Source: Morinoia aosen
Lineage: Eukaryota; Arthropoda; Malacostraca; Amphipoda; Talitridae
Length of the DNA: 64,000 nt
NCBI GenBank assembly: GCA_030386875.1
Contig: CM059559.1
Span: 4,833,177-4,897,176, forward strand
Reading direction: 5' to 3'
The position numbers were made by a program, and so were the translations under genes. Below the pieces are notes generated by a model. It had not been told where the DNA came from, searched no databases, and saw only the letters and a program-made list of their open reading frames with translations. This document shows positions 6,401 to 64,000 of this stretch, piece by piece. Every line of letters begins with the position of its first letter. Position 1 is the stretch's first letter.

Positions 6401-9400
6401 GTTGACGGTGTGGTTTTGCTGACGTCACGGCAACGAACCAATAGCAGCACTCGTATTGCATCTGGTAGCACTGCTACCTCCAAATCAGGCTCCACTATTG
6501 GCCGAACGACATGTCGTTGTGGTGATCATCCATTGAGTTCGAAATAAAGCCATTCTACTGGCTAGCTGAACAAGAGGAGGCGTATTTTTCCCATATAAAT
6601 GACCCTACCTTGTTTCCTCTACCATGGCCGCGATTCAAATGAACGCGCATTTCTTCTCCGACCAGATCCAGGCGCGGGTACACCGCTGTCTGGACGAGGT
6701 GGTGCCGCGGTCACGTCTGCCCTCACTCGCAGACCGCACTCAGTAAGTTGCCAACACTCTTCATTTTATGCTGATTGTTGACAGCGTTAGAAACAGTGAT
6801 TCATTTCTTGTGAGAATTATTAAATAACTAGTGTACACAGCCCATCAAAAATCACAGGATTCAATTATTTCCTTGAATAAATTTTTCAGCTGTAAATGAC
6901 AAACTAATGCATATATCCACCCTAATAGCAACTGCGATAAAAATATTTTTTTTTGTGTGTGCACTGGTGAAACTCGTATTAAAGATACGGCCACTAAGTG
7001 TACTTACGAGCATCACGGTAGAGGAAACAAGGTAAATTCAAGCCAGTCTCTTTTTCGTTGACGGTGGGGTTTTGCTGACGTCACGGCAACGAACCAATAG
7101 CAGCGCTCAAATGGCATATGGTAGCACTGCTACCCTCAAAATCTGCCTCCACTATTGGCCCAACGACATGGCTTTTGGTGACGCCATAAATTTCAATTGA
7201 AATAAAGCCTTGCTATTGGCTAGCGAACAAGAGGAGGTGTATTTTCTCCAATAGAAATGGTCCTACCTCGTTTCCTCTACCGTGATGAGTATGGCAGAGA
7301 GACGGAAGAAGCGTACACGAAACAAGTATATAAATAAACACACCAAAGGTGTATCTGTTCGTCCTGACATTTATAATTCCATCACCACTTTGTGATTAAT
7401 TTGTTCGTTTTAATGGGGTTGGTTGCGATGTTTTAAAAAAACACTAATTTTCAAAAATATAATCTGGGTGGTAGAGAATACCAAATTCTTTCATTATAAA
7501 GCATACTTTTTTGGTTTAAAACATACATTATCATCGTTGTTATTCACTATACCGCGTTTTATATTTTAAAAGCTAGACGATGTAACGTTCTATATTTTTA
7601 CCTGAGGGCAACTAAACTTTTTGGACGTATTGTTAGTACCTGCCATAGTCCTTTGCCGCGACTGATAGTTTTATTTTTGTCGATGTTCATGTTCTAAAGA
7701 TCGTGCTGATTCTCCATCGTCACATCTATTAGCCTTTATTGTTGCACGCACTCACCCATTCTGTTCAATGCTAAGCTATAAGTTATTGATTATGGTGCTC
7801 GCCAAAACTGTTCATGGTTTCGATTTTGGACTCATTTCCATTCCCTGCACTTGAAGTCCTCACATGAAGTTTCATTACTTTCTCGGCGGCCTCCAATAAT
7901 TGGGACTCAAACTCTTACTTCTTACCGGACACGACTGCATTGGTGTCTCCATTGCGATAGGATGTATTTGTGAATTATCTGCTTTTACAGACGAATCTTT
8001 GTTAAAAATGCGAAAATACTTCTTACTGTAGTCGTGTTCCACTTACCTAACTTCTTCAAGCTTTCTTAGACATCTGAGCATTGAAGTGCTCAACTCGAGT
8101 ACTTCATAAGATTTCCATTTGTTCTAAAGATACTAGACTAAGAGCTGAGTCTTAACAAGACACTTAAAATCATTGTTTCTTAACAGGCTTCCGTACGTGG
8201 ATGCGATGCTGCTGGACGTGCTGAGGCTGAGTTCACTGGCGCCCTTAGCGTTACCTCATCGGGCTACTGCTGACGTCAACTTTGAGGGGTACACCATACC
8301 CAAGGTACTGACACCATACCCAAGGTACTGACACCACACCCAAGGTACTTACACCACACCCAAGGTGCGTACACCATACCCAAGGTACTTACACCACACC
8401 CAAGGTGCTTACACCATACCCAAGGTACTTACACCACACCCAAGGTGCTTACACCTCACCCAAGGTGCCTACACCATACCCAAGGTGCCTACACCATACC
8501 CAAGGTACCTACATCATACCCAAGGTGCTTACACCACACCCAAAGTGCCTCAGATACTTTCAGTGAAAGCCATCTTCTATTTCATATCAAATTCAAGTAT
8601 TACCCGGAAAATCTGTCTGAGATATAAATTTATGCGGAGCGGTCCAGTCATGAGAGCGGTCTCTCATGATTGGATACAGTTTTATTTAAACTTGGAATGT
8701 GTTTTCTCTTAGTGAATTTGCTGTCTATGTGTCCAATTACACTCAATTGTCTTTTACCAAAATATATTCAGAGCGTACATTGCTATACAGAAATAAGTTC
8801 ACGGGGCTCACCTTTGACGTGTGACGGTAGTCCGAATTGTGACGATAGTCCGAATAATCCTAACTTTTAGCACTCAACAAGTAGCTATACTCAAATGTGT
8901 CCATTGTACTAGCCTAAAGACACAATCTATTGCTGTATCAGTTGGGGTAAATAAATGGTTTCGTTTGTTCTAATTGTTTAAACACTTACAGGACACCCTT
9001 GTGATCGCCTGTCTGGATTTGTGCCACCACGATCCAACTTTTTGGGAGAAGCCTCATGAGCTCCACCCAGAACATTTCCTTGATGAATACGGGAACTTGA
9101 GTAGCAAGAAAGAAGGATTCATGCCTTTTTCCATTGGTGAGTCAACGAGATAGTCTGCATTGCAGGATGATTTCATTGATCAAGAAATGCAAGATATTTT
9201 ACATCTTTACCTCCAGCAATGTGGAACGTGTTTCAGAGCAGTTTTTCTAAATGAACTTTGATGACATTCAAAATTAGGTAACACAAGCTGAGAGTACTGA
9301 AAAATTATGCATCTTACAGGACGCCGGCAGTGCTTGGGAGAATCGTTGGCTCGGATGGAGCTGTTCTTGTTCGCGGCGGCCATCTTGCAGCGGTTCTCAA

Positions 9401-9504
9401 TCGCGCCGCCAGAGGGGGTGACTCTCACGGGTGAGACCGACCCTGAGGATCGTCTTATGAACGTACCCAAGCCTTTCCAAGTCGTACTCAAAAAACGAGT
9501 GTGA
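472..9504 (+). CDS. Cytochrome P450, CYP2-clan, copy A (5' partial)
   Basis: Haem-thiolate monooxygenase, expected to be ER-anchored and to use NADPH-P450 reductase; the substrate cannot be read from sequence. Coding exons 3-11: 472-605, 1021-1242, 3547-3749, 4376-4493, 5042-5145, 6666-6742, 8187-8304, 8992-9136 and 9320-9504 (stop TGA 9502-9504), all with AG acceptors and GT donors. Exons 1 and 2 (membrane anchor, proline-rich hinge) must lie left of the window; I see neither in 1-471. Motifs: C-helix WSENR (exon 4), I-helix AGSDTTSST (exon 7), K-helix DVLR where ExxR is expected (exon 9), PEHF in the PERF position (exon 10), haem loop [11 protein letters not shown] across exons 10/11. No in-frame stops in any exon. 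Exon 9 runs into a 20-bp splice-donor array. Introns hold a 23-bp minisatellite, two MITEs and a LINE tail but no other gene. Closest relative in the window is copy B. Confidence 0.93.
1631..1875 (+). repeat. 23-bp minisatellite, intron 4 of gene A
   Basis: About 11 tandem copies of a 23-bp unit with core GTTGCCATCTTGGAGTAGAG. Because 23 is not a multiple of 3 and the unit lacks stops on one strand, several overlapping minus-strand frames stay open; these are not genes. Each unit holds GCCATCTTGG, which resembles the YY1/Pho binding core (GCCAT). Confidence 0.9.
3318..3440 (+). repeat. Left arm of intronic inverted repeat, gene A
   Basis: About 115 bp in intron 4, including TAGTTTGTTTTATTTATTAC and GAGCTGCTTTATT. 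It matches the reverse complement of 5735-5865 in intron 7 at roughly 85% by eye, with small gaps. Probably two copies of one dispersed repeat in opposite orientation. They flank exons 5-7. Confidence 0.75.
5735..5865 (-). repeat. Right arm of intronic inverted repeat, gene A
   Basis: Reverse-complement partner of 3318-3440. Shares AACAAAGTT, AATAAAGCAGCTCGTGA and AATAAAACAAACTAGA. Lies in intron 7. Confidence 0.75.
6358..6626 (+). mobile_element. MITE family 1, copy 1 (8-bp TSD), intron 7 of gene A
   Basis: 269-bp non-coding element with terminal inverted repeats CACGGTAGAGGAAACAAGGT. Flanking 8-bp target duplications are GCTGCGAT (6350-6357) and GCCGCGAT (6627-6634), 7 of 8 matching. The 8-bp TSD points to a hAT- or P-type transposase. 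It ends only about 40 bp before the exon 8 acceptor, so it supplies much of the region where that intron's branch point and pyrimidine tract should lie. Confidence 0.88.
7014..7284 (+). mobile_element. MITE family 1, copy 2, intron 8 of gene A
   Basis: 271 bp, perfect outer TIR CACGGTAGAGGAAAC at both ends. TSDs ACGAGCAT and ATGAGTAT (6 of 8 matching; both differences are C/T). Internal sequence closely follows copy 1, including the CTGACGTCACGGCAACGAAC segment. Confidence 0.88.
8285..8549 (+). repeat. 20-bp splice-donor minisatellite at exon 9 end, gene A
   Basis: Thirteen head-to-tail 20-bp units, consensus GTACTTACACCATACCCAAG, start directly at the exon 9 donor (8304/8305). Each unit joins the first 6 bases of the intron to the last 14 of the exon, so AAG|GT recurs exactly every 20 bp at 8305, 8325, 8345 and on to 8525 (12 sites); the 13th is AAAGT. 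In the exon frame a TGA is met at 8329-8331, so the array is not an extended exon. Variation is mostly A/G at +3 and transitions inside the unit. Confidence 0.97.
8875..8966 (+). mobile_element. LINE 3' tail fragment, intron 9 of gene A
   Basis: About 90 bp matching, in sense orientation, the 3' end of the LINE at 12148-17100: GTAGCTATACTCAA, CCATTGTA, CTGTATC, and the terminal GGTAAATAAAT. It stops about 25 bp before exon 10. Confidence 0.7.
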
Positions 9505-10069: not shown

Positions 10070-10223
10070 GGCAGCCCGCCCACTGATGCGATTCGGTGCG
10101 ATGCGATTCGCCTCAGTCGTCGGTGAGCTAGCCAACACAATGCTATTCCAACGGTGCTACAAATGAACCGTGCGATTTCGCAAGGCGTTGCACCAATCGC
10201 ATCGCATCAGTGGGCGGGCTGCC
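10070..10223 (+). mobile_element. Short palindromic MITE, TA-flanked
   Basis: 154 bp with inverted ends GGCAGCCCGCCCACTGATGC, flanked by TA on both sides (10068-10069 and 10224-10225). Internally it repeats GATGCGATTCG-like words. No coding capacity. Superfamily uncertain; a TA duplication would fit Tc1/mariner. Confidence 0.8.
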
Positions 10224-10472
10224 TAATTAATTAACAAAAATGCCTGATTACCACATAGTGCTTTCTATGTTGTACCGCACAGTTCATTATTTCTTGTGAA
10301 AGTGCTCAGCTCCAAAATTTATTAATCGAGATAGAGCTGAGACTATGAAGGGATTCAGCATTCAAACTTCTAAGCATTCAAACTGCTCGGCCCTAAGAAC
10401 TACGTAGCTGAACCATGAAATTGTTTCGTGCGATTTGTCTTTTACCAAAATGTATTCAGAGTGTACTTTGAT

Positions 10473-17025: not shown

Positions 17026-17100
17026 CTTGTAGGTTGAGGGAGTTGGCTTCCTTGTATAAACGAGGGTTGAATACCTTCACACTTTATGAGGGAATATTAT

Positions 17101-27468: not shown

Positions 27469-30400
27469 ATGATACTTGGAATAATACTTTTGCTGGTGTT
27501 CCTGGCGCTTATCGTTTTCTTCACAAGGAAACCTGGAAACATGCCGCCTGGTGAGTACTTCTGTTCAAGTTTATAGGTGAGTAAACGAATATTTCTGGAT
27601 CGGTGTCGTTAGCTTTATTTTCAGCTATTCGGAACTACGTATTAAGATGAAGAGAAAATTTAGGCTGAGAAATTTATATTGGTTAGCTTCTTAGCTTGCC
27701 CTTTCTGCTCTTGGATTAAGAGGAAGCTACTTCGAACGTAAGTTATTGTGAACTTCAGCTGCATTCTGCTACACCTAATGCATTAGTCAGAGCAGATGCA
27801 TGCTTGCGGAGACTCGTTACGAAATAAGAATCTGAATTAACTACTCATTGGTAAATGTCTGACTTATGAATGCATTTGTTGTGTCTTTTTTACGTTACTT
27901 CAAATGTTAAATGTCTCGAATATCCAAACAATAACATACCGAGGTGTTGCTGGTGCGATCTTGCAACAGCCTGTGTAGGTGGTGGCTCTCCAGAGCATTT
28001 GGTGGATGTCTATAGCGTTTAATTCGAACGTTATTGTCAATGTTCTGTAGCAATAGTTGTACCCAGTCTAACTTTTTCGCCGCCCAAGTAATGAAATCGC
28101 TTAGGCGGTGAAAAACATGCATGCTCCGGCGAAAAAGTTAGACTGGGTAGAGTGTTTTGGTGGATGGTTGCTCTGTTTCAGTGATTTATCGCATGGCTTA
28201 GTTGGGTACATGAATGAGATACTGTGCGAGTACTGTAGATAACCAACGAATAGTAAAATTTTTACTCAGCTTTCTAAAATTTAATATTTACTCAAAAAGT
28301 TAAACCGCTGTTCCGTATAAATTCGCTAATTCTAAAACCCACTCTAGATATTTTGAAAATTTTGGAGGAAACAAATTTTGTTAATAGATTTTTCGATTAA
28401 AATTAAATAACTTGGCACAGAGTTTCAATGAGAATCTTTTGGAGCGTATATTGCAATCAATTTAGCATATAAATGGCTGGTAATAAGACATATTGGTCAA
28501 GCAGTTCATGTTGAAATATTAAAATTGCTCCTTTTAAAGTCTCTTCCGGTGCTTGAATTTCATTTGAAAATGGGAGTTGACTGGAGTACTCATTGGAGTG
28601 CTCGTCGTAGCCGTTTGATTGAAGTTCCCACCCTTCCGTGAAGGTGTCGAGGGTTCAAATCCGGGCGCTGTGTGGCGACTTTCTCCGTAGGGTATAGGGG
28701 AAAAATTCCAAGCCCAATACCCCACTCTACCCAGGTGTCTAAAATGGGTACCGGTCTCGACCGAGGGAAACGGTCATGGAGTCCTTGGCGTTAGTTATAA
28801 GGCATTTGAAAATCCAATGTACAAGGTGAAATGTACCAGGCTTGATTGGAAATAAAAAATCCTTAGATGCCGTTGTTTGTTTGGTTGTTTGAGTATCCTA
28901 GCTCTTCCCTAGACTTCTGTGCATAGCGTCCTGCAGTATCAGTAACCTTAACCAACTTTGCAGGCGAAGCAAACTTCTATGCCGGCATTTCATTATCTCA
29001 TGGAGAGACGAATTTTTTAAACTTGTCCATAACGTTCGAGTTTACAATTTTGAGAGGTTCTTACGCTTTCTAAAAATTAAAACTTTGCAGTGACTTCAAT
29101 AGGGTAAATGGTTAAAATAATTTATAAATTTCGCAATCGAGATTAACTTACCCGTCGGACATGCTTAGCTATGTAATTATGAAGTGTAAAACGCGTTTAG
29201 CAGCAACCATAAACGTTCAATCATAAGCAGCAATAATTTCGCTAAATTATTCCTTTGATACAAAAAATATTCATCTTCACGATAAGCAAAAAATATAGAA
29301 CTCAAATATTATTTCTAGATAAGAAACAACACATCCGCTATCCTCTATTCGCTACCGGCCGTAAATTGAAAGTTTAACTAAAAGGGTCCATCATCTTTCA
29401 AACATCAGTGGAATATCACTCTCTGCATATTTGTGCAGGTAAACCAACTTTGAGCTAAGAAAAAGCAAAATGAAGTTGCAGACGAACGTAGGCACCCAAT
29501 TCGTTCATTGATTTATGAGCTACACACTGATTTTTGATTATTGATTTAAGTACGTTGATTCATGTGCATAACTGATTTGTGATTTTTATACATTGATTTA
29601 TTTACATAAATGATTTATGTGCATTGATTTATGAACATAACTGATTTATGATTTGTGTACATTGATGTATGTACTTAATTGATTTGCGATTTGTGTACAT
29701 TGATTTATGTACGTAACTGATTTATGACATATGTACATTGATGTATGTACATAATTGATTTATGATTTATGTACACACTTTATTCATGATTTTCATATAC
29801 TGATTTATGTCCATAATTGATTCATTATTTATGTACAATGATTTATGTACACAACTTATTCATGATTTATTTACATTGATTAATAATTTATGTACACTGA
29901 TTTATGAGCGCGAACAAATCTCGTCCACACATCACAAAGCTGACCGCTGTGTTCCCCAGGCACATTTGGCTGGCCCTTCGTGGGCAACCTGCCGTCCCGC
30001 GACCGCCGGCTGACGGAGCAGCTGCAGGAGATGATGGAGCGCTACGGGCGCATCTTCACGTGAGTCGCGGCGGCGCGTTCTTGTGTTTCTGCTGCAGGCA
30101 GCGTGCGTGTGCTATGTAGTACAAGTGCAGAACTTATCGTAAATCCATTGAAAATTGTGCTGGAGAAAAATGATTGGCAATTATAGCTGTTCATGCGACG
30201 TGAAATGAGTGGATCCTTTTTCCAAAGATGCATTGCTGATTTTGTTGTGTTCTTTTAATTTAACCTGAAATGGGTTTGATACCGTAAATTCAAGAGAAGT
30301 GATCATGTAGCTCTCTTCTTAATAAACTAGTCTGGACCCTTATTTAAGGAAGTTTTCTCTCTCATCAAGCCCAATGGTATTATTCTCTTTCTGCCGCCCT

Positions 30401-33400
30401 CAGAGCAATGCTGATATTGTACAATTCCTTCCTCCCACTGTTCAATAACTTCGAAGTCGTTGCATTTAGACATCATTTACATATGGTTTTGTTGGTGAAC
30501 TCATCAGTCAATGTTTTAAATCATTTTTAAAATAAAATAAATAGGAGTGGAACCTCTAATGTGGGACGAAATGAGATTCCTACTTACACCACCAAATTTT
30601 TATTTAAAAGTTGCTATAGCTTTCTAACGTCAAATGTACTGTTCCTAATTTTGCCTCTCACCTCTAGCAGCATTCATGTACTAAATAATTCTCGAAAATT
30701 TTGAAGGCCAAAACCACCTGACGGTTTATAAATATTAGACATTCAACTACGAAAAAATTGCGTTTACGAACAGAAAAGATTTTCTTGTTTTTGTTTCTAT
30801 CTTCTGTAAAATATTTATGTATGTGTATAGTTTGTATAATACCCATGTATGTTTACCAACTAAGGGTCTTAATGTTGAGACATTTTTAAAAACCTATGTT
30901 TTACATTTTATGCACCAACTTTATTGAAAATGGATTGTATTTCTTTGTTCATTTCCTTGAATTTAAAATGGTAATCGAACGTGAGGTAACTCGTGGGATT
31001 TATCAAACTTGTTGAGAGATCCAGTGCATGCTGGGGAAATTTACATATTCTGAAGAGTATAGTGATTAGTATCCTAGATTGAGGTTAGTATTTTATCTCT
31101 GTAATGTCATCAAACGATTGAGTTCGATCGAGTTGTACCCAACATTAGAATGACGACAAGGAAGGGATAATTTAGTTTCATTATTTATTTTGGGTTCTAG
31201 CTGTAAGTTGCACTGCAATAAGCTCGGCGACTGTGCGTCATAGAAATCCGCGAGGTCCTTGGAGGTGACATCCGCCATATAGCGGTAGGGGCACGTTGCT
31301 GCAGTCAGTTGCGATAACTCTGTGGGTAACTCGTGCTAAGCAAACTCGGGCCAGTGGCTACGCGGCTTCGTTGCCGACTCATGATTTCTTGACGAGTGTT
31401 GGTTACAGCGTGAATAGCGTGACTATGCTATAGCACTTATCAGGTTATAGGAGTGCTGAACGTGATGTAGTAGTGAGGAGAGCATAGGACTGAGTAGGTC
31501 ACCTTCTTTATCCCTTCCTACTCAATAGGTCACACATACTCATAGAAGAGACTCGCACAAGGTCACTATATTACGCGCAAATGAGCTTGTTCTTAGCCTT
31601 CTGCCATCTATTTCCGATTCCCTTTCTTAATTCTTCCGGCACTCTCTATGCCCACTCCGTCTCTCTTCTTTCATTCCTTTCGTTACAGGCCCCTCACTTC
31701 CCCCACTCCCCCTTCCAAACACGTGGTGACGAGCTGATTCGTGAAGTTTATCTAATAGCTTGGGATCTGTTTGCAGTGGCGTCAGGCGCCGAGTCTCTAC
31801 ATTTTTAACTAACTCCAACGCTTGAGATGATTTTATATCAAACTTAATTAAATCATCTCGTCTTAATTGTGGGACTTTTGTTTATAATTGAGTTATTAAA
31901 TGGCGTCTTGATATCTATACGTGTTTTAGAAGACCAATTTTGCAAACAAATAAGCGGAGTGATACTGAATTTCGTTTAACCTTTCAGGTCTAAGGTGGGC
32001 TTTTGGAAGATGGTCATCCTTACAGACTTTGACCTTATAAAGAAGGCCTTTAATCATCATGACATCCAAGGAAGAGCTCACTTCTACACCTTCGATTTGT
32101 TATTTTCTCGTAAAAATAACGGTGAGCGCGATGGTAAATGATCCCTGCTCTGGCAGATCACTCTTGTTCAATAAAAAAAAAACAAAGACATAGAATTCAT
32201 CTTTCATCCTGGGTATCAACAAAGCCACAAAAGAAAAGGATTCAAATTGTTTGATGAAAATGTGGTCTAGAATTGTTTGTATCAAAATACATCCATTGTT
32301 CGTAATTTTGACTGCAACGACGAGAATAGGTATCCCATAACATGTTTGTATTAGATTAAACATTCAAAATTTAAAACTGAAAATAAGGAAATAGACTAAG
32401 TTATGTGACCCATCCAAAGTTGAAAACTTTTACTCACATTTGGTTAAGCATCAGAATAAGGCTCATTAATGTACGAATCAAGTCTGTCGAGTGGGGAAAG
32501 ATCAATTGACTGCTCTCTCATGCAGGTGTACTGAACTGCGACAGCCCGCTGTGGTTAGAGAACCGCCGTTTTCTGATCCGCCTGCTGAAAGACCTGGGTA
32601 TGGGCAAAACAATCCTTGAAAACTCCATCCAGGAGGAAGCCGCTCTTTTGGTGGACCACCTGGAGAAGACCTGCGTAGACAAGCCTTCTGAGATGGATCT
32701 CAGTGTCAACACTGCCGTCCTCAACGTCATCTGGCAAATGTTGGCGAGTAAGTTCCGCGAGTTGGAGACCTTTAAGGAAGTTTTATTATTTGTAAACAGT
32801 AATACATAATTGCGTGCGCAATGGCACATATCCTTTCCAAACTCCCTGATCTTAGGATTGCAGGAACAGTAAGCGACTTTAGTTTGAAATAATGTCTGAT
32901 ACTGCTCGGTATAAAAAAGAGTGGGTCGCAGTTCTGTACAAAGAAGAGTACGAGGTCTCATATCCGCGAGAGTGACATAGTGACAGAGATGGAGTAAAAA
33001 GCCATGACAATCATGGCTTTATGCTCCATCTCTCACTTTTTCTATGTCGAACCTAGCTCTTTTGTTACCAATGTGTGATCCATAACCCTCTCGTCGCAGG
33101 TAAACGCTACAACTGCAGTGACGACGAAGTACGACTTTACACAACTATGGAAAAGCAAAATGTTGCCTTAACCAACCGGCCTATCGCAGTGTTGCTTGAT
33201 TTACACCCAGGACTGGAAAAATTTGTGCCCCAGTTTGTTCTTAATCACGTCATGAAATATCACATCATAGAGAAAAATAGAGACTGCGTACTCGACATAT
33301 TCATAGTAAGTGTTTTTCAATTTAATTTGTTAGAACTATTCGCCTTCGATCTGTACTTTTATTAAGTATGGAACCTCTGCCCCTATTTTGTACCATTTTA

Positions 33401-39400: not shown

Positions 39401-40608
39401 GAGCGCTCTCACGGGGCACCAGACATACAACCCAGGAACATCTCAGCAAAAGGATAGTGACTTTAGCAACCCGTTATTTACTGTCCACTCTTTGACTTAC
39501 CTTTACCGATAACAATGTTCAAACCAGACCCCTCGAATCTTAGCCCTCGACAACTATCCAGGAAATCAAGCCCTAATATCGTGGTTTCTCTCCGGCTGAG
39601 ATCTATCGTCCCCCTCAATACTTGAGAACTGAACGAGTCTATTACTTAAGTCTACCTTCCCGCCCTCTCGAATTTTTTCTCTCTGCCTCGCGACCGGACA
39701 CTAAAAGGCCGTTTAAACTAGGGCACATTTCGGCCGTGAGGCGCGACACGTGTATACGAGGCTCACCACTGAGGCTCATATATGTGTGTGTTTATGCGAA
39801 GTTCTCTATTCCCCATGGTAGTTACGAGGCTCTTGAGTGTCGCGCATTACGAATTCGATCAGAGCAACTAGGGAACTTCATATAAACATACACAAATGTG
39901 AGCCTCGCATACGCGTGGCGCGCCTCACGGCCGAAATGTCCCCTAGTGTAAACGGCCATTAAGTGACTCCTAATGTTCTCATCGTTATGAACAAGAAAAT
40001 AGGGAACACTACCGAGGGGGAGGGGGCGAGTGAGGAATGAGGCAACCTTGAGCAGCCACTCAGGCTTTGCCCGGTGCCGTGTCTAATCGCAAGGGTCGAA
40101 AAGGTCTCATCTTTGGTTCGTTCTCCAATAACCTTAGGATCGGCGATCCTGGCTCTAGTTTTGTGGAGGCCTCCGCTGCCAGTCCGAAGCTGAGGAGTGA
40201 GAGTGTGGCTCTTTCTTTATTAATTCGTCATAAAATCCTGTCCATCATCTGGCACTAGCGCATAAACGTATACCCAGTCAAGACCAAATGTTTCCACATC
40301 CATCAGACACGCCTCATTCGTATTAGATTCACCCAATTTAAGTCTCTTGTCTGCTTGCGACAGAGACAAAATAAAATACTTTTTATTCAATGTTGACTGC
40401 GTTGAAAATTTTTTTGTCGCCAGGACGTCGCCAGTGCTTGGGAGAATCGTTGGCTCGGATGGAGCTGTTCTTGTTCGTGGCTGCCATCTTGCAGCGGTTC
40501 TCAATCGCGCCACCAGAGGGGGTGACTCTCACGGCTGAGTTTGACCCTGCCCAGATACTCATGAACCTACCCAAGCCTTTCAAAGTCGTGCTCAAAAAAC
40601 GTGTGTGA
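27469..40608 (+). CDS. Cytochrome P450, CYP2-clan, copy B (complete)
   Basis: Complete P450 of 496 residues. Exons: 27469-27550, 29960-30059, 31988-32121, 32526-32747, 33100-33305, 34970-35087, 36303-36406, 37211-37287, 38119-38236, 38812-38956, 40424-40608 (TGA). The ATG at 27469 begins a hydrophobic signal anchor ([18 protein letters not shown]) followed by basic residues and the MPPG hinge. Later motifs: WLENR (C-helix), AGSDTISS (I-helix, with Ile in place of the second Thr seen in A and C), DVLR in the K-helix, PEHF, and [11 protein letters not shown] with the haem Cys near residue 440. Exon 5 has one codon more than in A and C. Intron 7 starts with GC, not GT. TTTTTAG at 27456-27462 just before the ATG looks like an acceptor, so a 5'UTR exon probably lies upstream. 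Tandem repeats or a hairpin lie close upstream of exons 2, 5, 6 and 7, and exon 9 runs into a 22-unit donor array. Reading frame intact throughout. Confidence 0.94.
28062..28147 (-). mobile_element. Palindromic MITE family 2, copy 4, intron 1 of gene B
   Basis: 86 bp, TA on each side (28060-28061, 28148-28149), outer arms identical to copy 3. Core in the opposite orientation to copy 3; the left arm has lost one inner block. Confidence 0.85.
28570..28860 (+). mobile_element. Possible tRNA-derived SINE, intron 1 of gene B
   Basis: Contains GAGGGTTCAAATCCGGGCG, a good RNA polymerase III B-box/T-loop match, with a TAGCC-type A-box candidate about 50 bp before it, and ends in GATTGGAAATAAAAAATCC. 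No tRNA cloverleaf can be completed, so SINE is preferred to tRNA gene. The left edge is approximate. Confidence 0.5.
29505..29908 (+). repeat. ~38-bp AT-rich minisatellite before exon 2 of gene B
   Basis: About 9-10 degenerate copies of a 38-bp unit made of TGATTTATG and TGTACATTGAT words. It ends about 50 bp before the exon 2 acceptor at 29959, so the intron's 3' functional region abuts it. Confidence 0.85.
30880..30960 (+). mobile_element. SINE-like 3' tail, intron 2 of gene B
   Basis: TTTTTAAAAACCTATGTT, CACCAACTTTATTGAAAATG; same family as 20300-20370. Confidence 0.4.
32974..33048 (+). other. 75-nt near-perfect hairpin, intron 4 of gene B
   Basis: GACATAG...CTATGTC closes a stem that continues through AGAGATGGAG pairing CTCCATCTCT and AAAGCCATG pairing CATGGCTTT, with a tiny loop (about 33 pairs, few bulges). 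It lies about 50 bp before exon 5. Size fits a microRNA precursor or a very small foldback MITE; sequence alone cannot decide. Confidence 0.65.
34293..34319 (+). other. Short perfect hairpin, intron 5 of gene B
   Basis: CGTCCAAGAT and ATCTTGGACG form a 10-12-bp stem with an AT loop. No U-run follows; role unknown. Confidence 0.5.
34598..34901 (+). repeat. 68-bp minisatellite before exon 6 of gene B
   Basis: Four full units and a partial one, period 68 bp (69 for the first), starting TACTTCCGAAATTTAACCAC at 34605, 34674, 34742, 34810 and 34878. Copies are nearly identical, so recent. It ends about 70 bp before the exon 6 acceptor. Confidence 0.93.
35552..35659 (+). mobile_element. Palindromic MITE family 2, copy 5, intron 6 of gene B
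   Basis: 108 bp, arms CCCAGTCCAACTTTTTCGC and AAAAAGTTAGACTGGG; core in the same orientation as copy 3; more diverged than copies 3 and 4. Confidence 0.85.
35776..36276 (+). repeat. ~82-bp minisatellite before exon 7 of gene B
   Basis: Six copies of an 82-bp unit with landmarks TTTTTCGAAAAGACTGTATC and TTAAAATCTCTGATTTTATG; the last pair carries a 7-bp insertion (GGCCC). The array stops about 25 bp before the exon 7 acceptor (36302), so it supplies that intron's 3' end. Confidence 0.92.
36407..36412 (+). other. Non-canonical GC 5' splice site, intron 7 of gene B
   Basis: Exon 7 of gene B ends CCGGAG and is followed by GCGAGT. At the homologous place gene A has CCGGAG|GTGAGT and gene C GAC|GTGGGT. 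Exon length (104 bp) and phase need the break here. GC-AG introns are a known minor class, and the remaining donor positions are a good match to U1, so it can probably splice. Confidence 0.75.
38221..38696 (+). repeat. 20-bp splice-donor minisatellite at exon 9 end, gene B
   Basis: About 22-23 units of the same 20-bp family as gene A, beginning at the donor 38236/38237 and repeating at 38257, 38277 and so on to 38677. One unit has GA instead of GT (38417) and the last two or three are degraded. The exon frame stays open to 38455, for about 11 units. A frame-preserving alternative donor occurs only every third unit (60 bp). Array length differs from gene A (13 units), as expected for minisatellite turnover. 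Confidence 0.97.
39707..39957 (+). mobile_element. Long-TIR MITE, intron 10 of gene B
   Basis: 251 bp with arms of about 100 bp: GGCCGTTTAAACTAGGGCAC on the left and the reverse complement of a near-identical arm on the right, sharing CATTTCGGCCGTGAGGCGCG. CpG-rich compared with its surroundings. Target duplication unclear. Confidence 0.85.
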
Positions 40609-43300: not shown

Positions 43301-43611
43301 TATCTGAACAAATCTTCGATCACCTTCAAGAACGTCCTTCAATTCAAAGGTTGCTGAAGACTGACGAGGGAAAATTCAGGTTTGGTTTCCACATTTTGTT
43401 GTTTTTACATTGCTCACATTGAGGTTTTGCCTTCGCTACCAGCCCCACCACAACGATGAATCATCACAAATATCAATTGACCGAAGTGGTGGGGTGCTAG
43501 CAGTGGGGTCCTTGCTCCGTTCATGCTCTTGAAATAATGCCTCTACAGACCAGCATTCTACGTCTCTTCCATCTCTTGTTTCTTCTGACACCCTCACGTA
43601 CTATACACCCT

Positions 43612-53151: not shown

Positions 53152-56100
53152 ATGATCCTAGAATTGTTCATACTTGTTCTCCTTCTGGCCATTTGGGCTC
53201 GAATGAGCGGGAAACCCAAAGATTTGCCACCAGGTGAGTGTGTGATGAATGAGAAAAATTGATTTTTTCAATTGTACCCATCTTGTTTGTACGATGATAA
53301 CCATGCTAAAACACAAACACCTAGGTTAAGTATTTTTTTTTTAGTGTCTTAAAAATATTTAGTGTACTGATTAAGCACAACAGAACAATTGTTTTCAATC
53401 TTTGGATGAGATGTATGTGAGGTTTTAGTCTCGACCAAGGGGAAAATGACAGCCAATAGCGCCAACCAGCTGAGGCCTCCTCAATATGTCAGGCAGTTTG
53501 AGCAAGCACCTGAAATGCTGCATTTGTATTTCAGAAATTATTTGTGTTAAATCAGGCTTATTACTATGAGCGGTTTGCAATAGGAGTGTTGACGAGGTAC
53601 AAGCTGAAAAATTGGAGTTTTAAATAAGTTGAAAACTAAATGAACTTCGAGCTACTTGAGTGAAAAATTTACGAGTAAGCAGTTAGAAAAAACTCATTAA
53701 AAATTGATATATTAGTCAGGGCTACAGGCAACGAATAGTTTTACCTAGCTGCATTTTAGAAATATGCCATAGGAGTCGACAGCAAACAAATTTTGCTTTT
53801 GGAATAAATAATCCGTGCAACAACCCAACAAATTATCAGTAAATAACCAGGCTGAATATTCAGAAACAAGCATGTGGGTTACCAGCTGAGCAAATGTACA
53901 CTTAACTTTATGAAAGATAAGTGGGCAAATTCAAGGGGATTATTTACTTGAGTTTGAGGGGTGGAATTATCATGGAGTTAGTAACAAATTAGATGGACCA
54001 CACAGGATGCCTGAGAGGTGCCGGTATTTATGCAAAGAAAAACGCACGTTTAGAGGCAGATGAAGTGCACGGTCTAAACCAACCTCATGCGAGAATCGTC
54101 TCTGGAAGAAAAGAAGAACAGTTTATTTCCAATAATGATACAAAAACAGGCATGATACAAAAACAATGATACAAGAAACATCATTGTTTTTAAAATATCG
54201 TAAAGTAAGGATCCTTAGTAGATACGCACACATGCGTATCGTCATGCCCTTGTCACGAGTCGAAACAGATGATTGAATGGAAAGTTTGGAAAATGTATGC
54301 CCTTTGTTGCGTGATCTAGGTTTGGTAATATATGTTACTAAAAGTTAGAAAATTACATGAATTCCGTGACGATGCATTGTTGAAAACACTCTTATTAGTG
54401 CTCACTTACATTGAAAGAGATGTCTCTGCCTCCCGGTCCAGCAAACCTCCGCGGCCAGATTAGCAAACGACTTACGCCGTCGTGTTGTACAGCTGACAAG
54501 GTAAGTTTGCTCAAGTCGACCTGGTTTTGCTGCCAGCAATACTTTTGCGGTAAAGATAATTGTTTAAAAATTTGACCAATAATTGTTATCGTTAAAGGAA
54601 CTCGCTCACCGTCCCCGCCTTACGAATCACTAATGCAAGCCATCATCCGACTTGCAATGTCACGTTGAGTAAGTTTTAAATGCATTCATATTACAACGTA
54701 GATGTATGGGAGGTCATTGCTAAATATCTACGGCTGAATTTATGAACAATATCAAATCAGACAAGCTGGGTTTTTGGACGAAATTATTGCTCCAAAGAGG
54801 CCCTTTTTTGAGCTCATATGTGCTCCTCGCAAGCGTCACGAGCAACTCCTTAAATTTATTTTGTTTCTAATAGAAAAGAGAAAAAATCAGGAACAAGTTC
54901 TGTAGCACGGGATTTTTATAATTTTGGTCAGCCGATATCAAAATGAATTTCATTAAACAGATGCACGAATTTTAAATCTAACTCACACGCAATCTAACAC
55001 AAAAACTTGTTGATAAGAAGTTTAACGCGAAGTGTACCTATTCTGCCTGGATGTAGACAATCTTAACTGCCACAATATTTCTTGATTTTCAGGGTCGTAC
55101 GGACTTCCAATCATTGGTCAGCTCCCAGATACGTCTGTGCGCATAACAGAGTACTTCCAAAGACAGAAACGAAAATACGGTAACATATTTACGTAAGTTT
55201 TTGCTAATATTTTTTGAGTATGACGTTATAGGATCATGTTGAGTAAAACTTTTCAAAGTTTCGGAAGCGTTTTCAAATGCTGTAACTTGAAACTAATGCA
55301 GTAAGAAAGAAAAGAAGCACCGGAAAAGGCATCACTGAGTCTCAAAAAATAGATATAATTAATCTGCATTGCTTGTCCAAGTATTTAAATGGCGTTTGGA
55401 ATAGGTGTTTTTTCTCAGGTTAAATTCTACAAACTTGTGACATATTAGGAATAAACATAAAATTTAGAAACCTTCACCAAAATTTAAGAAGCCATGAATT
55501 TATTTTCCTGTATGTTCCTCGCTAATTTCATCCGCGAAACACGTTAAGTGTGGATCTTATTCTTGAAAGTGTTTAATTCTTCCAGCACCAAGTGGGGCTC
55601 CAGACCTATCGTTGTCCTGGCCGACTACGACGTGATCAAGAAGGCGTTCACCCACCCGGCGTTCCATGGCAGGCCGCACTTCATGAGCTTCTCCGTGATA
55701 CACGGCCGGCAAAATGCTGGTAAATACGAGATGCACAACTCATCTCTGTTTCGTTATGAAGGAAATCCAAATTAAATTTTTCCTGATGCTAGTTCACTTT
55801 ATATGTTTAAAAACCTCTTGTAAAATACAGAGTGTGCATGGGATGAACGAGAAGCGAAAGTCCGTAAGAAATGAGGTCTCAGGCGAATACTGCTAGAGGA
55901 AACATTTCAACATTTTCAACATTTGAAACAAGGCTAATTAATTGTCGATATTTCAAATTAACCGATATTGTTTTTTGCCCAGCGGTTAGACTTTATTTTC
56001 CAGGAAGATTGTACAATCTGTCACTTTTTATGTTAATATCATACTGACCTGAAAATTTATGAGTCTTAGATTAAAATGACGAAATCGCCAAGTTCAGTAG

Positions 56101-59100
56101 CAGCTCCATAGATCAAGAAGCCAAAATACTGTAAAGAGTTCTAAATTATACCTGTTTTTGTACAGGTATAGCAGACAGTGACGGAGTGAAATGGTCGGAC
56201 AACCGACGCCTTGTGTTGCGCGTGTTGCGCGACCTGGGCATGGGCAAAACAGCTCTCGAGAGCTCCATCCAGGAGGAAGCGGCCATGTTGGTGGACCACC
56301 TGGAGAAGACCTGCTTGGACAAGCCCTCTGAGATGGGCCTCAGCATCAACACTGCCGTCCTCAACGTCATCTGGCAAATGTTGGCTAGTGAGTTCATATT
56401 TTGTAGGGCTGAAATTAACTTGAGTTCACTGCTGTGAGTTTTAAGGATTATTTGCTGTTTCTTTGAATTCGTACAGCCTGAGAGTAGAATTCGGTCATAT
56501 ATTATAACAAACTTACTATTTATTAGCAGCAATTTATATCTTATGCTTAGCGTAATTTTCAACAATTACTAATTGAGGCGCACGAGCACTAAAAGCCTGG
56601 AAAATAAACTATACCAAACAAAAAACATATATTAACTAAAATTATTTTAATCACAGCTGTAGAACATGCTGCAAAACTACCCGGATTCCATAATGAAACA
56701 AAAAAAGCGTAGAAATTACAAACGGAGCTAGGCCGCGAACTTATGTCTGGACAGTTAAGCGGCCCATAGACGATCAATTTTATTGTCAATATAATTGACA
56801 ATGATGGAATATTGACAATTTAATTGATCGTCTGTGGGCTTGATTGACGACCGTCAATTAATTGACTTAGTGGGCAAAAATAATTTCATCAATATATTGA
56901 GTCAATGATATTGACAATTTTATTGACAATAAAATTGATCGTCTATGGGCCGCTTTAGTGATGCAAATGGCTGAGTTGCCGCCACATAAAGTTAGCAACA
57001 ATTATTTAGGCTTTCTCTCGAGTATCACTGATACAATTACAACTGTCGCAGTTGGGGACGATTTATACCACCTTGAAACTCAGCTGCTCAGAGCTGCGGA
57101 CGTTCAGCAGATGCAATCTTTCGAGGTAAAAAGCCAAGCATTGCGACCACAGAACTGTTGCAAAGGCGCATGTTACTGAATTAGAAATCACTTACATTTA
57201 CATTTCTGTTCTCATTTTCTAGGGACTGATATAACAGAATGACTTGATACAGTCCACAGCAAATAACAATAAAATTATAGAGTAGCGTTTATAGTGCTCA
57301 ATAAAGTATTTGCTGTGATGAAAGCGTTATGTGGCACATTGCATGGCACAAAATCAGTTTATTTTGAACTTAGAATTTGTTTCTAAATTGCTGTGACACA
57401 AACTTCACTGATACGGGAACTGCTCCGATTTTAAATTTTTGACGATGCAGTGTTGTCTCCTCATTTCACGTTAATTCCGTTCTGTTTATCACCAGGCAAA
57501 CGCTACGATTGTGACGATGAAGAAGGCCGTCGCTACGGCGCCATGGTGAAAGAATTTTTCAAGATTATTGAAGGTCCTTTCTTCGCCCTGAACGTATTCC
57601 CAGGGTTGGATAAATATCTACCAAAATTCATTTTAAATAACGTCATGAAAGTCAATTCACTGATTAAAATTCGGGAAAGTGTTTTCGAAATGTTCAAGGT
57701 AAGCTTCATTTTACAATAAGCATGAGTACCATTAACCATTAAAATCAGTAGTTATCTGATGATTAGAGTGAGCTGTAACCATTCCAATACTTTCACAGCC
57801 GTTCAATAGTAGTAAAATCCTATTTCCGAAAGCTCAATCTTAGTACTACAGTTCCTTCGTTTTTACTCTGTTTTATCTTTCTATTCTACTTCTACAGTAA
57901 GTGGAAAAGTCGGTAATTACACGAGAAATGATACATTTCTATCCTACTTTTAATGTTGCACCTCAATGAAAAAAGATTTGTAGAGTGTTTTGTTTATACT
58001 ATGTTGTTGCACGGAAAATATAAGCATTTCATTATTAGAATGTTGATAAACCAAACAAATATATACGCATGTGTGACCTACGCTCAGGTCTTGTAATGTA
58101 AAGCTCCCGACTAGAAAATGTTTATCACAGAATTATTTAGGCTTACTGCACCGATAGGTTTGTTCTTGTGAACGTGAATTTCTGAAAATATATTATAGTA
58201 ATTCCTTGAATGAGTGTTAGAACAATTAATTTTTTCCATTCATTCCTCAGAATCCATTCTTCATTCATTCTTTAACCCAGTCAAGAGCTTATTCTGCTGA
58301 CTTCCTGGATCTAATTGAGTACCAGAAAAAGAAACGGGCGAAAAAAAAATGCTGACGGCTGAGTACATAACTTTATTCTGCTGGCTTCCAGGAAGTGATA
58401 GAAGAACACCAGAAGACGGTGGACCCCAACAACCCTCGTGACGTCGTCGACCACTTCTTGCTGCAGAGGGATAGTTCCAGCCCTGCTCAGCCTCTGCAGC
58501 CTGACGATCGTGAGAGAAAAATACATTCGAACCTTTGTTGAAAAAACTTTACAGTATTAAAATTCCAGTGAGTCAAAACAGAATTTTTTGGAGGAAACAT
58601 TGCCAGATCAATATATATATATTATAATTGCTTACATGAATTCCGCCGATAGAATTTGTTCCAGTGTTTATGCCAAGCAACCGATTTACCGCTTTTTAAG
58701 TTTTCTCCGAACTGAATGTTACTTCGTTTACGCATAAGTGCGGAAGACTAGGTAGTTTGCAGAGCTGAAATGTCACCAGGGACCTAATCGAGTTTTATGT
58801 CTCTGCGGCAGTTGTGGAGGTGATGTGCGTCATGATCGACATGTTTGCCGCCGGTACGGACACAACGGCCTCCACAATTCGTTTCTTCATCCTCTACATG
58901 GCCATCTATCAGGACGTGGGTGTTAATAGTGTGATAAATTCATAAATTTACCGCTGATTGAAAATAGTAAAAACTCTATACGACCATCGTAAAAATAACT
59001 TTCCCATAACCCACAACTTTTCACAATTTTCATAATTAGCCGATATGTGAAGGGGCATGAAAAATTTTAGGCAATTTCACTAGTACTATTATGAATAATG

Positions 59101-62100
59101 ATGATGAAATTGATCTCTACTCTTTCGCTGCAACGATTTCCAGTTTTGCATGGTTTGGCGAGGAAATCTATGAATATAGAAAGGTGAAAATCGTTTTCAA
59201 GGTTTTGAATACATTGAGTTCAAGGTTTCGAATACATTGTTCAACAACGCAATTTTGAAGTTGAAGTGAGTACTTAGATTCTTGTTGAAATGTGGTTGGA
59301 AATTTGTTTCAACACACAAATGTACTGCTCAACACTCGCGAGAACGATCGTCTATATAGAGCAGGTGTTCCCAACCTATCTTCGACTTACACCCCTTCAG
59401 AAATTTAATTTGAACCTCGAACCCCTAAAATAACAGTGCCAGCCTATAGCCAATATCCTATTATTTACCTGGACTCTCTACCACCTCCTGAAACTCTACT
59501 TCAGGTTGGGAAGTACCCCAAGATGGGAAGTACTCCAGATTGGGAAGTACCCCCAAGTTGGGAACTCAAGCTGGTCTAGAGCTATTAGTCTTTGAACTGC
59601 ATTTGACTTTCAGCATAAAGATCTCGAGATCTCATAAGAATGCCAGACAGAGGTATGTCACTAGCACCTGATACAAAGCATGAACTGCGTTCAAATATTG
59701 CGTTAACAGTCCTAAAGGCAAACATTCAACACTTGGCTGTCTTTGCATTTGTACGTTTTACCTTTAGATTTTTATTGCGTTAGTGGGAGTTGATCGGCTA
59801 TCGCACCCGATCAGTCAGACTAATTTATTTTGACAGCGCGACGCAGCGTCTGTAAGCTTTGGTCTGCTTGCGCCCGCTCGCGCGTAGTGTGGCCGCTCTC
59901 ATAGCAATACATGTCTTTAATATTGCAGCTACTGCCTGCGTACGCTCGTGTCAGTGCCAATGCGTTCAGTCTGGCCGTATCCTTAAGGCTGAGTTAATAG
60001 AAATGATACACTTTGCTTAAATATTAGAAAAAGGTCGGAAATATATAATTTTAAGGAAAAAAATGCTCCTAATAATGTACTTATTCCAAAAAATAATTAA
60101 ATGGAGAAGATTCATTAAAATTTAGATACTTAATAAAAAGTCATAGTGTATAGTAATGACCTTTCCGTTAGGGCTTTTTTTCGACAGTATGATATTTTGG
60201 ACGATTTGAGAAAAATTGTAAGCTTCTCATGCAGTGTTGTTCATTCACAGTGGCCTGCAGCTCGGCTGTGCCACGCAGGCATTCAAGTAAACTGTCGGCT
60301 CCGAGTTAGCGAGAACGATACATATGTGTTGGTCTTGTAACACCTTGAAAATAATATTCTCATCTCATTAAAATCGAAAAGTAAACAATGTAATTCAAAG
60401 AGAGCCACGTCCCTAAAGTTAATTTCTTTCACTGTTAACGTAATATTTAAATTCAACTTTGATCATGCCTTGTGTATCGCAAACGCAATATTACGTAAAT
60501 TTCTTCATCGGCGTATTTACGTGATGTTTTTCACCGTTTCTTGATTTCTCGTATGTGTTTTGAGGCTATCTGAAGCCATGACTGTGATAATGAAGTGTTT
60601 TTTACGGGGGCAGATTCAAGCCAAGATCCACCGGTGCTTGGACGAAGTTGTCCCAAGATCTCGCCTCCCATCCGTCACCGACCGCAGCCAGTGAGTTCAT
60701 TTAGCTTACGGGTTAAATAATTGAACGTCTCCTACTTCTTAACACGTTAACTGCGACGGGTTGAAATGAAGTATTCAATATTCAACTCCGATTGGAGTTA
60801 AGAGACCAATTTGAAAAAAAAAATCATTAAACATATTGTGCCTTCATTTAGTTTTCATTAAGTATTTATGAAAACTGAGTTTGTGACTGCGGGTTGGTCA
60901 GCAACGATTTGAAAATCTTCTCTGTGATCACCGGTGGGTCCCTTCGGAGGAGGCGTGTTAGAGCCTGAGTTCCTCAGAGAAATCGTGACGTCATAAGAGT
61001 GGTCAGAGATATCTCGCCATTTGTGCAAACTTCAAGGGAAGAAAATCAGTTAGTTGCTATGTTTTGATGATTTCCGAATAAACGGAGCTGATCATGCTTT
61101 GGAAAATTAACAGAGTAATGTAGAGATTTTTTTTCTGTTGGTTTAATGGGGGAAGACGGTAAATTTATGTCATTTCTTGTGTGACGCGCAAAGGAAATAT
61201 AATTAATTAAGCTTGTCTCTGCAGGCGCTGGCCTGAGTTATCGGATTAGACAACCGATATGGCAACCGATACATATGACAACCTATGGAAATATTTAACG
61301 CATAATTTCTGTATCAGTAATATCTTAATTTTATCACTAAAGCATGTGAATTGCACGACGTAAGGCTTTTCCATGCGTTTTAATTTTCCATCTTATTTCT
61401 TCTACGAGGGGCTAAGTACTGTCGATTACAACGGAGGAATTGCATTGCTAAAAAAATAGTCACGATCATTAAAAAATCTTTTTGGCTTCAACCTTGTTTG
61501 TCCAAGAGTTGTGTCAAGACTACGAGTCCCTTATTCAATACGTTTGTGAATCAAATATACGCCACATAGAAATCCAAAAAATATAAATATTCATTTCACT
61601 AATTTCACTAATATACTGCTTGCGCAAAAGTATATTTCAGCTTGAATTTGGAATCCAACCTTTCCATTGTCATATATCTAAGAGATAACTTAACTCACTC
61701 AAAGCCTTGGGTAATAACATTTTCTAGCGTTAGCTTCACAGAAGCTCGCCATTTTGATAGTTCCAAACAATGATTCCACGGTGCCTGTTTGGCACCGTGA
61801 AAGGCAACGCTGCTACAGAGGCCACTCCTCATGTGTGCCCCAGACTCCAGTACGTGGACGCGGTGATCCTGGACGTGCTGCGGCTGAGCTCCCTGGCGCC
61901 CGTAGCGCTGCTGCACAGGGTCACGTCAGACGTGGTCTTTGAAGGATACTCTATTCCCAAGGTACGGGCTGTTGGGTACTCTGTTCCCAAGGTACGGGCT
62001 GTTGGGTACTCTATTCCCAAGGTACGGGCTGTGTGGTACTCTATACCCAAGGTACGGGATGTGTGGTACTCTATTCCCAAGGTACGGGCTGTGTGGTACT

Positions 62101-64000
62101 CTATTCCCAAGGTACGGGCTGTGTGGTACTCTATTCCCAAGGTAAGGGCTGTGTGGTACTCTATACCCAAGGTACGGGATGTGTGGTACTCTATTCCCAA
62201 GGTACGGGCTGTTGGGTACTCTATTGCCAAGGTACGGGGTGTTGGGTACTCTATTGCCAAGGTACGAGCTGTTGGGTACTCTATTCCCAAGGTGCGGGCT
62301 GTTGGGTACTCTATTGCCAAGGTACGGGCTCCTGGGTACTCTATTGCCAAGGTACGGGCTGCTGGGTACTCTATTGCCAAGGTACGGGCTGTTGGGTACT
62401 CTATTGCCAAGGTACGGGCTGTTGGGTACTCTATTGCCAAGGTACGGGCTGTTGGGTACTCTATTCCCAAGGTACGGGCTGTTCCTTTTGAAGGATACTC
62501 TATTCCCAAGGTATGGTATATTACTTATTCATTTTAGGCATTTCAAGCTTTGTTCCAGATCTCTTAGACTCTGATTTTAGCTTTGTGCCTAAAACTGATA
62601 GAAACTCTTCATAGGTCGCAAGTTTATTAGATTCGTTCTGGTTATATGAAATGTGATTGTGTGGTGGTTTTCCGAGCATGATTCTGGGTTGCAGAACACA
62701 ACGGTGCTCGCTTGTGCCGAACTCTGCCATCGGGACAGGAGGTTCTGGAAGAAGCCCTACGAGCTTTACCCGGAGCATTTTTTGGACGAAAACGGAAATT
62801 TAGACACCAAAAAGGAAGGCTTCATGCCCTTCTCAATTGGTGAGTGACTTGAATCTAGTTTGACATTCTTGCGTGGTATTGATCGAGATAGGGAACGAAT
62901 TTCGAAAGTCTTGTTAAAAAACAAAATGAAATAGACTCAAAGTACTGGCTTTTCCGGACTCATTTTTTCTTTCCGAAAAATGTCTTGGCTTGTTACAGCA
63001 AGATTTTACAAATGCCTCGACGTATGAATTTGGCGAACGTGAATCTATGGAAATAGGAAATCAACTTCATCTTTTTATAATACTTAAACACAGTTTTTTA
63101 TGTCGAAAAAAGCATTGCCATTGTAGATGTTCAGAAATCAAAACAATTGCATCTCAGGATCATGACAGCAAATACTTCGACGTATGAGCGCGCTAATTAA
63201 ATTTACGCTTTAGATGCAGGCAGAGTGACTATTGACTCATAGTAACCTAATGTAATCAGTAGTTTCTTCATTTCACTGAGCATAATGTGACACAGTTAAA
63301 TTAATGCTAAAATAATGTCTTTTTTTTCGATTTTCCATCCATTTTTTTCCGACAAACGCTGCTTCCTAAATCCAAGTAAACTGCGGTGTTTATTCTGCAG
63401 GTTGTGAGAGACTCTGTAATCCAGACGTTCTATTCAACATCTTAAGCCACGTGTCTTTAGTTCAGTCCTTCAAAACAGTTTCTATTTTCGCTTAATTCAT
63501 TTTATGGCATCCTCAAACTAGTGCCCGACGCAAATTTTCCATCACATTTTTTTCCTGTGAATATTTTCCCGGGTTGGCTTTTTGAAATATTCATTGCATT
63601 AAATCAATTAAATGACGGAATTAAATCAAGAAATTAGATCAATCAAAAGTTAATTATGTCCGCATAACCAGTATGACTTTTGCATCGTACAATACCAATC
63701 TGGATTGTGTCATTGCTGCATTTGGTCTTGTCAATATGTTTGGTCGATCAGTGTTTATTGACATGTTCCCACCACTACTACCAAAATAACCTCACCACTA
63801 TGAAGTTGCGAAATATTCTACTGCATTCGATCATCTCTCGCCAGGACGCCGTCAGTGTTTGGGGGAATCCTTGGCTCGCATGGAACTTTACGTCTTCACG
63901 ACGGCCATCTTGCAGCGGTTCAGGATCGAGCCACCAGAGGGGGTGACTCTCACGGCCGAGCTGGACAAGTCTCAGAGACTCCTCAACATACCCAAGCACT
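53152..64000 (+). CDS. Cytochrome P450, CYP2-clan, copy C (3' end cut by window)
   Basis: Third P450, about 495 residues if its last exon matches A. Exons: 53152-53233, 55093-55192, 55586-55719, 56166-56387, 57496-57698, 58392-58509, 58812-58915, 60614-60690, 61844-61961, 62695-62839 and 63845 to beyond 64000. The ATG at 53152 opens a hydrophobic anchor ([16 protein letters not shown]), then LPPGS at about 25-29. Motifs: WSDNR near 115-119, [10 protein letters not shown] near 299-307, DVLR at about 357-360, PEHF near 412-415, [11 protein letters not shown] with Cys at about 439. Exon lengths equal those of A, so the start and splice sites are well supported. TTTTCCAG at 53137-53144 suggests a 5'UTR intron. 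Sequence is clearly more diverged than A is from B. Exon 9 ends in a 30-bp in-frame donor array. Introns carry TTA-, TTAA- and hAT-type MITEs. Confidence 0.93.
54110..54200 (-). mobile_element. SINE-like 3' tail (inverted), intron 1 of gene C
   Basis: Reverse complement reads TTTTAAAAACAATGAT and ATTATTGGAAATAAACTG, with an ATGATACAAAAAC triplication. Same family as 20300-20370. Confidence 0.4.
56758..56954 (+). mobile_element. TTA-flanked MITE (PIF/Harbinger-type), intron 4 of gene C
   Basis: 197 bp with inverted ends AGCGGCCCATAGACGATCAA and a perfect TTA duplication (56755-56757, 56955-56957). A partial internal copy of the end (GATCGTCTGTGGGCTTG) near 56820 suggests a compound structure. 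Confidence 0.9.
59362..59573 (+). mobile_element. hAT-type MITE, intron 7 of gene C
   Basis: 212 bp, ends CAGGTGTTCCCAACC and GTTGGGAACTCAAGCTG; flanks ATATAGAG and GTCTAGAG (6 of 8), close to the TCTAGA-like sites hAT elements favour. Three tandem GGGAAGTACYCCA words precede the right end. Confidence 0.75.
60743..60957 (+). mobile_element. TTAA-flanked MITE, copy 3, intron 8 of gene C
   Basis: Left TTAA intact (60739-60742), right one TTAG. Starts CACGTTAACTGCGACGGGTT and ends CGTG; interior TGATCACCGGTGGGTC as in copies 1 and 2. It begins about 50 bp after exon 8. Confidence 0.8.
61941..62515 (+). repeat. 30-bp in-frame splice-donor minisatellite at exon 9 end, gene C
   Basis: Donor GT at 61962 recurs every 30 bp (61992, 62022 and on to 62472; 18 sites), and a further GTATGG donor lies 39 bp on at 62511. 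The unit is about 13 intron bases plus 17 exon bases; translated in the exon frame it reads [10 protein letters not shown]. The right end restores the original exon end (FEGYSIPK before 62511). Units differ by few substitutions (C/G in ATTCCC versus ATTGCC; GTACGG, GTAAGG, GTGCGG). All units are multiples of 3, so every donor choice is in frame, and no stop occurs over the whole 549 bp. Confidence 0.97.

Follow-up and report, generated by a model that had tools for sequence, protein, structure and literature searches.

In the 64,000-nt stretch of the Morinoia aosen genome analysed here (the window; G000:C4:4833177-4897176, within a genome of 1.99 Gb in 29 contigs), three tandem cytochrome P450 genes of the CYP2 clan, denoted A, B and C, carry a minisatellite directly on the 5′ splice site (donor) of exon 8, the repeat unit being a copy of the gene's own exon-intron border. 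Further arrays are located at the homologous junction of related genes elsewhere in the genome, and the donors that are copied are weak. With a probability of about 0.5, such splice-donor minisatellites reflect recurrent mutation, with the weakness of the copied donors making the arrays tolerable, and not selection for the copies.

Arrays at the exon 8 donor and their recurrence

The arrays and the genes which harbor them are listed below.

472..9504, plus strand: gene A, CYP2-clan P450 (CYP3213-like), nine exons identified, frame intact
8187..8304, plus strand: exon 8 of gene A (...NFEGYTIPK), spliced model
8290..8549, plus strand: array A, 13 units of 20 bp (15 exonic and 5 intronic nt), GT in 13/13
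27496..40608, plus strand: gene B, intact paralogue of A, spliced model
38119..38236, plus strand: exon 8 of gene B, spliced model
38222..38681, plus strand: array B, 23 units of 20 bp (15 exonic and 5 intronic nt), GT in 22/23
55093..64000 and continuing beyond the window end, plus strand: gene C, paralogue of A and B, ten exons identified
61844..61961, plus strand: exon 8 of gene C (...VFEGYSIPK), spliced model
61947..62486, plus strand: array C, 18 units of 30 bp (15 exonic and 15 intronic nt), with an uninterrupted reading frame across all units
62487..62510, plus strand: 19th copy of array C, longer, with 24 exonic nt and its donor 39 nt past the 18th

The exon 8 donors are located between 8304 and 8305 (A), 38236 and 38237 (B) and 61961 and 61962 (C), all in phase 0 after ...IPK, and in each gene the first unit of the array contains this donor. 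A sequence-only reading of this stretch had placed arrays with units of 20, 20 and 30 bp on one homologous junction in three paralogues, which is confirmed both by the letters and by Tandem Repeats Finder (A, 8290-8548, 20 bp, 12.9 copies; B, 38222-38679, 20 bp, 22.9 copies; C, 61947-62483, 30 bp, 17.9 copies). Among the ten larger arrays of the window (at least four copies of a unit of at least 15 bp, picked by us from the output of the same program), three start over a donor and the other seven cover none. Random placement of ten arrays puts at least three over donors with a frequency of about 5e-4, a figure that applies to a window chosen for its arrays and to genes of which A and B are not independent.

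Across the ~2-Gb genome the unit pattern of A and B, allowing up to two mismatches, has 27 matches, all of them within A and B. The two genes align without gaps through the 3′ end of the array, and 53 of the 84 nt beyond it match (random mean 22.7), so that the two arrays are taken as one inherited array; the genes also have two identical unit types in common and remain in register into the intron. Array C probably descends from a founding unit of 39 bp (24 exonic and 15 intronic nt), as judged from the exonic length and donor spacing of its 19th copy, and the 30-bp unit would then be this unit minus 9 bp. The 15 intronic nt after the first and after the last donor of C agree at 8 sites, or at 10 sites when the comparison takes the end of unit 18 (counted from the letters). 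In B and C, adjacent units resemble each other more closely than units in shuffled order do (a value as low is reached by 4 of 2000 shuffles for B and by 1 of 2000 for C), as expected from unit turnover; in A this is not clear (517 of 2000). Of the 54 copies in the three arrays, 53 retain the donor GT, but several other columns are equally constant, and purifying selection on the GT is therefore not claimed. The fold of the array RNA is no more stable than that of shuffled sequences (z scores of -1.3, 0.3 and 1.3), giving no sign of a hidden structure.

In order to compare the junction across the genome, 60 exon 8 donors were assembled from 20 loci of a p450 list, 14 of 20 further loci, a third batch of 20 taken from a list of 100 exon 8 matches (42 of the 100 lie outside the sample), the window's A, B and C, and the genes D, L092 and L093, which were chosen for an open frame or an array-bearing neighbor. 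From the second batch C21_98.920, C15_39.083, C5_27.958, C6_81.805, C10_66.592 and C21_29.505 were dropped, as exon 8 with a donor at this place was not found in the stretch covered. The intron between exons 8 and 9 is not universal in the family, and L001, L002 and C10_66.592 (L054 and L070) read through without it. Equal-score exon 8 matches occur in both G000:C4:82.5-82.9M and 84.86-85.23M, as from a segmental duplication or an uncollapsed haplotype.

Arrays are found at 9 of the 60 donors and fall into four unit types, namely that of A and B, that of C and D, that of a trio on contig C15 and that of a pair on contig C21; the genes on C15 and C21 are distant paralogues of A-C. Gene D (G000:C4:4922060), the fourth array gene of the cluster, is a duplicate of C, repeats the 30-bp unit across the 12 copies covered, and has its exon 8 inside an open frame of 461 residues. 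In L036 on C15 a 20-bp unit beginning at the donor is present 53 times, with AG/GT at 50 of 54 sites, while the unit is present 4 times in its neighbor L092 and at least 8 times in its neighbor L093; the exon contributes at most AG to the unit of this trio. GT is retained in 4 of the 8 copies covered in L093, i.e. donor copies decay. C21_98.625 and C21_98.675 contain units of ~75 bp with 12 exonic nt in 5 and 3 diverged copies (judged by eye), one of the two arrays being interrupted by an insertion of ~700 bp. A unit composed of exon end, donor and intron start is thus seen in A, B, C, D and the C21 pair, and tandem copies of constant length in all but the C21 pair (13, 23, 18+1, at least 12, 53, 4 and at least 8), whose arrays are short and diverged instead.

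For a frequency test, the segment from -15 to +15 of each donor was aligned to the downstream sequence (up to 1.5 kb, and over ~625 nt only for the 20 donors of the third batch, best z 2.6) and compared with shuffles, a z score of at least 4 being counted as a pass. D, L092 and L093 were excluded here and included in the count of A at position +4 described below, which leaves the window's three donors and 54 picked regardless of arrays. Six of these 57 exon 8 donors pass (A, B, C, L036, C21_98.625 with z 9.3 and C21_98.675 with z 12.3), as opposed to none of 113 donors of other exons (best z 3.5), some of which are projected positions and may be misplaced. A first control set from outside the window had demanded GT[AG]AG, which favors strong donors (0/89), and was redone free of the motif (0/113). 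C19_56.266, with z 3.9, none of 200 shuffles as high and its best match 1.3 kb off, was counted as array-free. The difference is significant by Fisher's test (p 0.0012) and also when the arrays are counted by lineage, as four types (p 0.011). The exon 8 junction is therefore likely to be special for arrays, and the search of this junction in other CYP2-clan genes that the sequence-only reading had proposed yields further arrays in this genome.

That reading had also held that the array arose at least twice at the same place. Judged from units and breakpoints, donor-spanning duplication at exon 8 has arisen at least twice, and four times if each unit type, two of which are located in distant paralogues on other contigs, is taken as an origin of its own. 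A common ancestral array for A/B and C is conceivable, but units and breakpoints differ. Gene E (L084, G000:C4:4934927) has no array, and the 20 residues covered in it fit the proteins P0001 (Trinorchestia longiramus) and P0010 equally well (15/20), so that it does not decide on an ancestral array shared by A/B and C. Its exon end ACCCAAG recurs ~14 nt past the donor, which is perhaps a nascent duplication.

Donor strength and consequences of donor choice

Of the 27 donors scored in genes A, B and C, those at the arrays rank lowest in strength, in all three genes. An A at position +4 is present in none of the 9 array donors versus 43 of the 51 array-free exon 8 donors (p 1.6e-6 with relatedness ignored; p 0.005 for 4 lineages versus 25 clusters). 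The consensus core of the array copies also lacks this A in each of the four types (GTRCT, GTACGG, GTGTGT and GTASAG), and because the copies have such a weak core in common, it was probably weak donors that became duplicated, as opposed to strong donors that decayed later. Weakness at this position is also found where no array is present, namely in 8 of the 51 array-free exon 8 donors, including L038 and C21_98.827. Near the C21 pair, paralogues with the non-consensus donors GTATAT, GTGAAA and GTAAAG have no array detected, and the donor of gene E is GTTACG (not scored). Exon 8 donors as a whole are not poorer in A at +4 than those of other exons (43/60 versus 87/113, p 0.46). In L038, a 22-bp array of 26 copies (7224-7790 on the gene strand) stops just before the next p450 exon match, hence on the acceptor side.

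Splicing of A in silico from each of its donors yields an intact protein from donor 1 alone and a truncated one from the other 12 of 13. In B the donors 1, 4 and 7 leave the protein intact, and the tenth is in frame but has lost its GT. All 19 donors of C give an open product; the array is open over 183 codons and would add ten residues per unit in frame, as would that of D as far as covered. In the C15 trio the frame runs into a stop 19 codons beyond donor 1 in L036 and L092, and 39 codons beyond it in L093. Since A and B evolve under constraint (see below), donor 1 of both genes is presumably often used; in A, a stronger-looking copy is located at +60, with a score of 6.4 versus -5.8 for donor 1. 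Selection for the open frame of C is not claimed, as only 3 of the 90 possible single changes in its unit create a stop. A repeat of this kind is absent from the 120 listed of 1524 homologues, one of which bears an unrelated 34-residue insert at this place, and a comparison of the array peptide with other proteins gave two matches at chance level (E 1.7 and 2.4, at most 7995 candidates scored). P0001 and P0002 of T. longiramus are annotated without an insert here, which is uninformative on their introns.

Origin of the arrays and known counterparts

For the order of events, the choice of donor and the neutrality of the copies we infer the following course. Tandem duplications that span the exon 8 donor (or, in one family, begin there) would recur, and the duplicated border would then expand by unit turnover. 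Lacking the A at +4, the weak copies would compete poorly as decoys, and exon definition would keep the first donor in use; most other choices would truncate the messenger RNA, as in A and in L036 on C15, or introduce in-frame inserts, as in C and D. Copies of a strong donor, on the other hand, would trap splicing and be lost. Several observations weigh against this account. A neutral process leaves the choice of the exon 8 junction unexplained, and outside the window the excess is borderline (3/54 versus 0/90, p 0.051; p 0.14 for two lineages). Among the donors of other exons 26 of 113 lack the A at +4 and yet none has an array, so that a weak donor is rejected as a sufficient cause, with the reservation that some of these positions are projected. 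The weak-donor-first order could be mimicked by homogenization of the copies. Finally, L036 lies in an 8-kb stretch that consists to 68% of arrays, five of them around one P450 exon and one with a 27-bp unit in 146 copies, which makes an array at its donor less surprising.

It is also conceivable, although unlikely, that the duplications were selected since extra copies of a weak donor aid U1 capture and the definition of exon 8. The weakness of the array donors agrees with such a compensation, the non-consensus donors without arrays near the C21 pair and in gene E fit weakness coming first, and every donor of C gives an open in-frame product. However, an intact protein results from only 1 of 13 donors in A and only three GT donors in B, the stop of L036 follows shortly after its first donor, and the GT columns are not clearly better preserved than others. 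The selected splicing function which the sequence-only reading had raised as a possibility (donor redundancy, U1 recruitment or alternative tail length) thus finds little support, considering also the loss of GT from half of the covered copies of L093. Slightly less probable still is a mutational hotspot due to the exon end, through its sequence or its structure, which would produce the duplications with splicing being incidental to them. Arrays recur at the exon 8 junction and at no other junction tested, and much of the family has a conserved exon end (GGNTAY...CCNAAR/GT). On the other hand, the breakpoints of the four types differ (exon -15, -24, -2 or later, and -12), the array RNA shows no unusual folding, and the short direct repeat formerly proposed as a seed of replication slippage does not have the required spacing, as GGTAC in A and the GGATAC/AAGGTAC pair in C recur at 16 nt and not at 20 or 30.

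A regulatory or coding use, in which the choice of donor would set the ratio of productive to truncated messenger RNA or would extend the products of C and D by ten-residue repeats behind ...IPK, appears improbable. It would agree with the uninterrupted frame of array C, with the long open frame around exon 8 of D and with the variation in copy number among the close C15 paralogues (4, at least 8 and 53), but the openness of C is weak evidence given how few changes make a stop, and neither the listed homologues nor the chance-level protein matches reveal such a repeat. Least probable of all is the combined view that the exon 8 donor is a recurrent site of selected banks of weak donors, variable in copy number, which tune productive P450 messenger RNA and in C and D also provide variable decapeptides. 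The preferred account remains that of recurrent mutation tolerated at weak donors.

The border-repeat build itself is already known. A 31-bp variable number tandem repeat (VNTR) of human CBS, c.1444_1467+7(16_21), is located at the border of exon 13 and intron 13 with 24 exonic and 7 intronic nt in 16-21 copies (PMC2630376), and more repeats have been associated with lower CBS activity (PMC5188458). As far as its name tells, this unit also joins an exon end to an intron start, thus repeating the donor in copies of fixed length. It differs in being a polymorphism of one human gene, while here four unit types are seen, in one assembly, at one homologous junction of a gene family. The suggestion of the sequence-only reading that no such family had been described thus does not hold for the build; we know of no earlier case in which it recurred at one matching border, and apart from CBS neither a P450 donor array nor recurrence at one junction was recognized among the open-access literature listed. 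Intron gain by tandem genomic duplication, as outlined in PMC4974935 and PMC2891723, likewise involves a tandem duplication that includes AG/GT. That process creates a new intron, whereas in the present family the intron also occupies this position in paralogues lacking an array; given 51 array-free sites with a donor there, intron gain is rejected here. From the ordinary minisatellites of this genome, which are common and similar in unit size and copy number, the arrays are set apart by their position on a donor.

With near-identical donors inside a single intron, nature has set up a test of spliceosomal choice between equal 5′ splice sites, and this junction occurs among the paralogues with 1, 4, 13, 19, 23 and ~53 copies, in frame or not. 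Should recurrence at a single junction extend to other species, this would point to a mutational hotspot arising from a conserved exon end or to selection acting on the number of donors in genes for detoxification.

The P450 gene cluster in the window

The genes A, B and C are arranged in tandem on the plus strand with open frames in their spliced models, and the first exon or exons of A were not found within the window. All three model proteins contain FSIGRRQCLG, FxxGxRxCxG being the haem-binding motif of P450s. Membership in the CYP2 clan is indicated by the named matches, CYP3213 and CYP2L1-like proteins, and by CYP2B and CYP2C chains matched by sequence. C is 65.6% identical to A. The predicted proteins matched include no entry of the same species, the best matches (81% and 80%) belonging to another one; A is 81.6% identical to P0001 and C 88.9% to P0002 of T. 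longiramus, followed by CYP3213-type proteins of Hyalella azteca at ~60%, a divergence that marks the source as a talitrid-type amphipod distinct from T. longiramus. A tree of 23 proteins pairs A with B (support 0.68) beside P0001, and joins C to P0002 (1.0). The rate of synonymous substitution (dS) is 0.60 between A and B and 1.75 between A and C, with ratios of nonsynonymous to synonymous rates (dN/dS) of 0.21 and 0.14, respectively. The former ratio suggests that A and B are working genes, and pseudogene status of the three genes is rejected in view of these ratios and the open frames.

Exon 6 of gene B, in the numbering used here, ends in a GC donor (GAG/GCGAGT) at position 36406. On the minus strand, 12538-15540 holds an open frame of 1000 residues resembling the endonuclease/reverse transcriptase of a non-LTR (long terminal repeat) retrotransposon (named by eye), with shorter frames beside it at 16188-17076. 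A direct 1.3-kb duplication is formed by 43608-44921 and 47877-49190, which are 99.5% identical.

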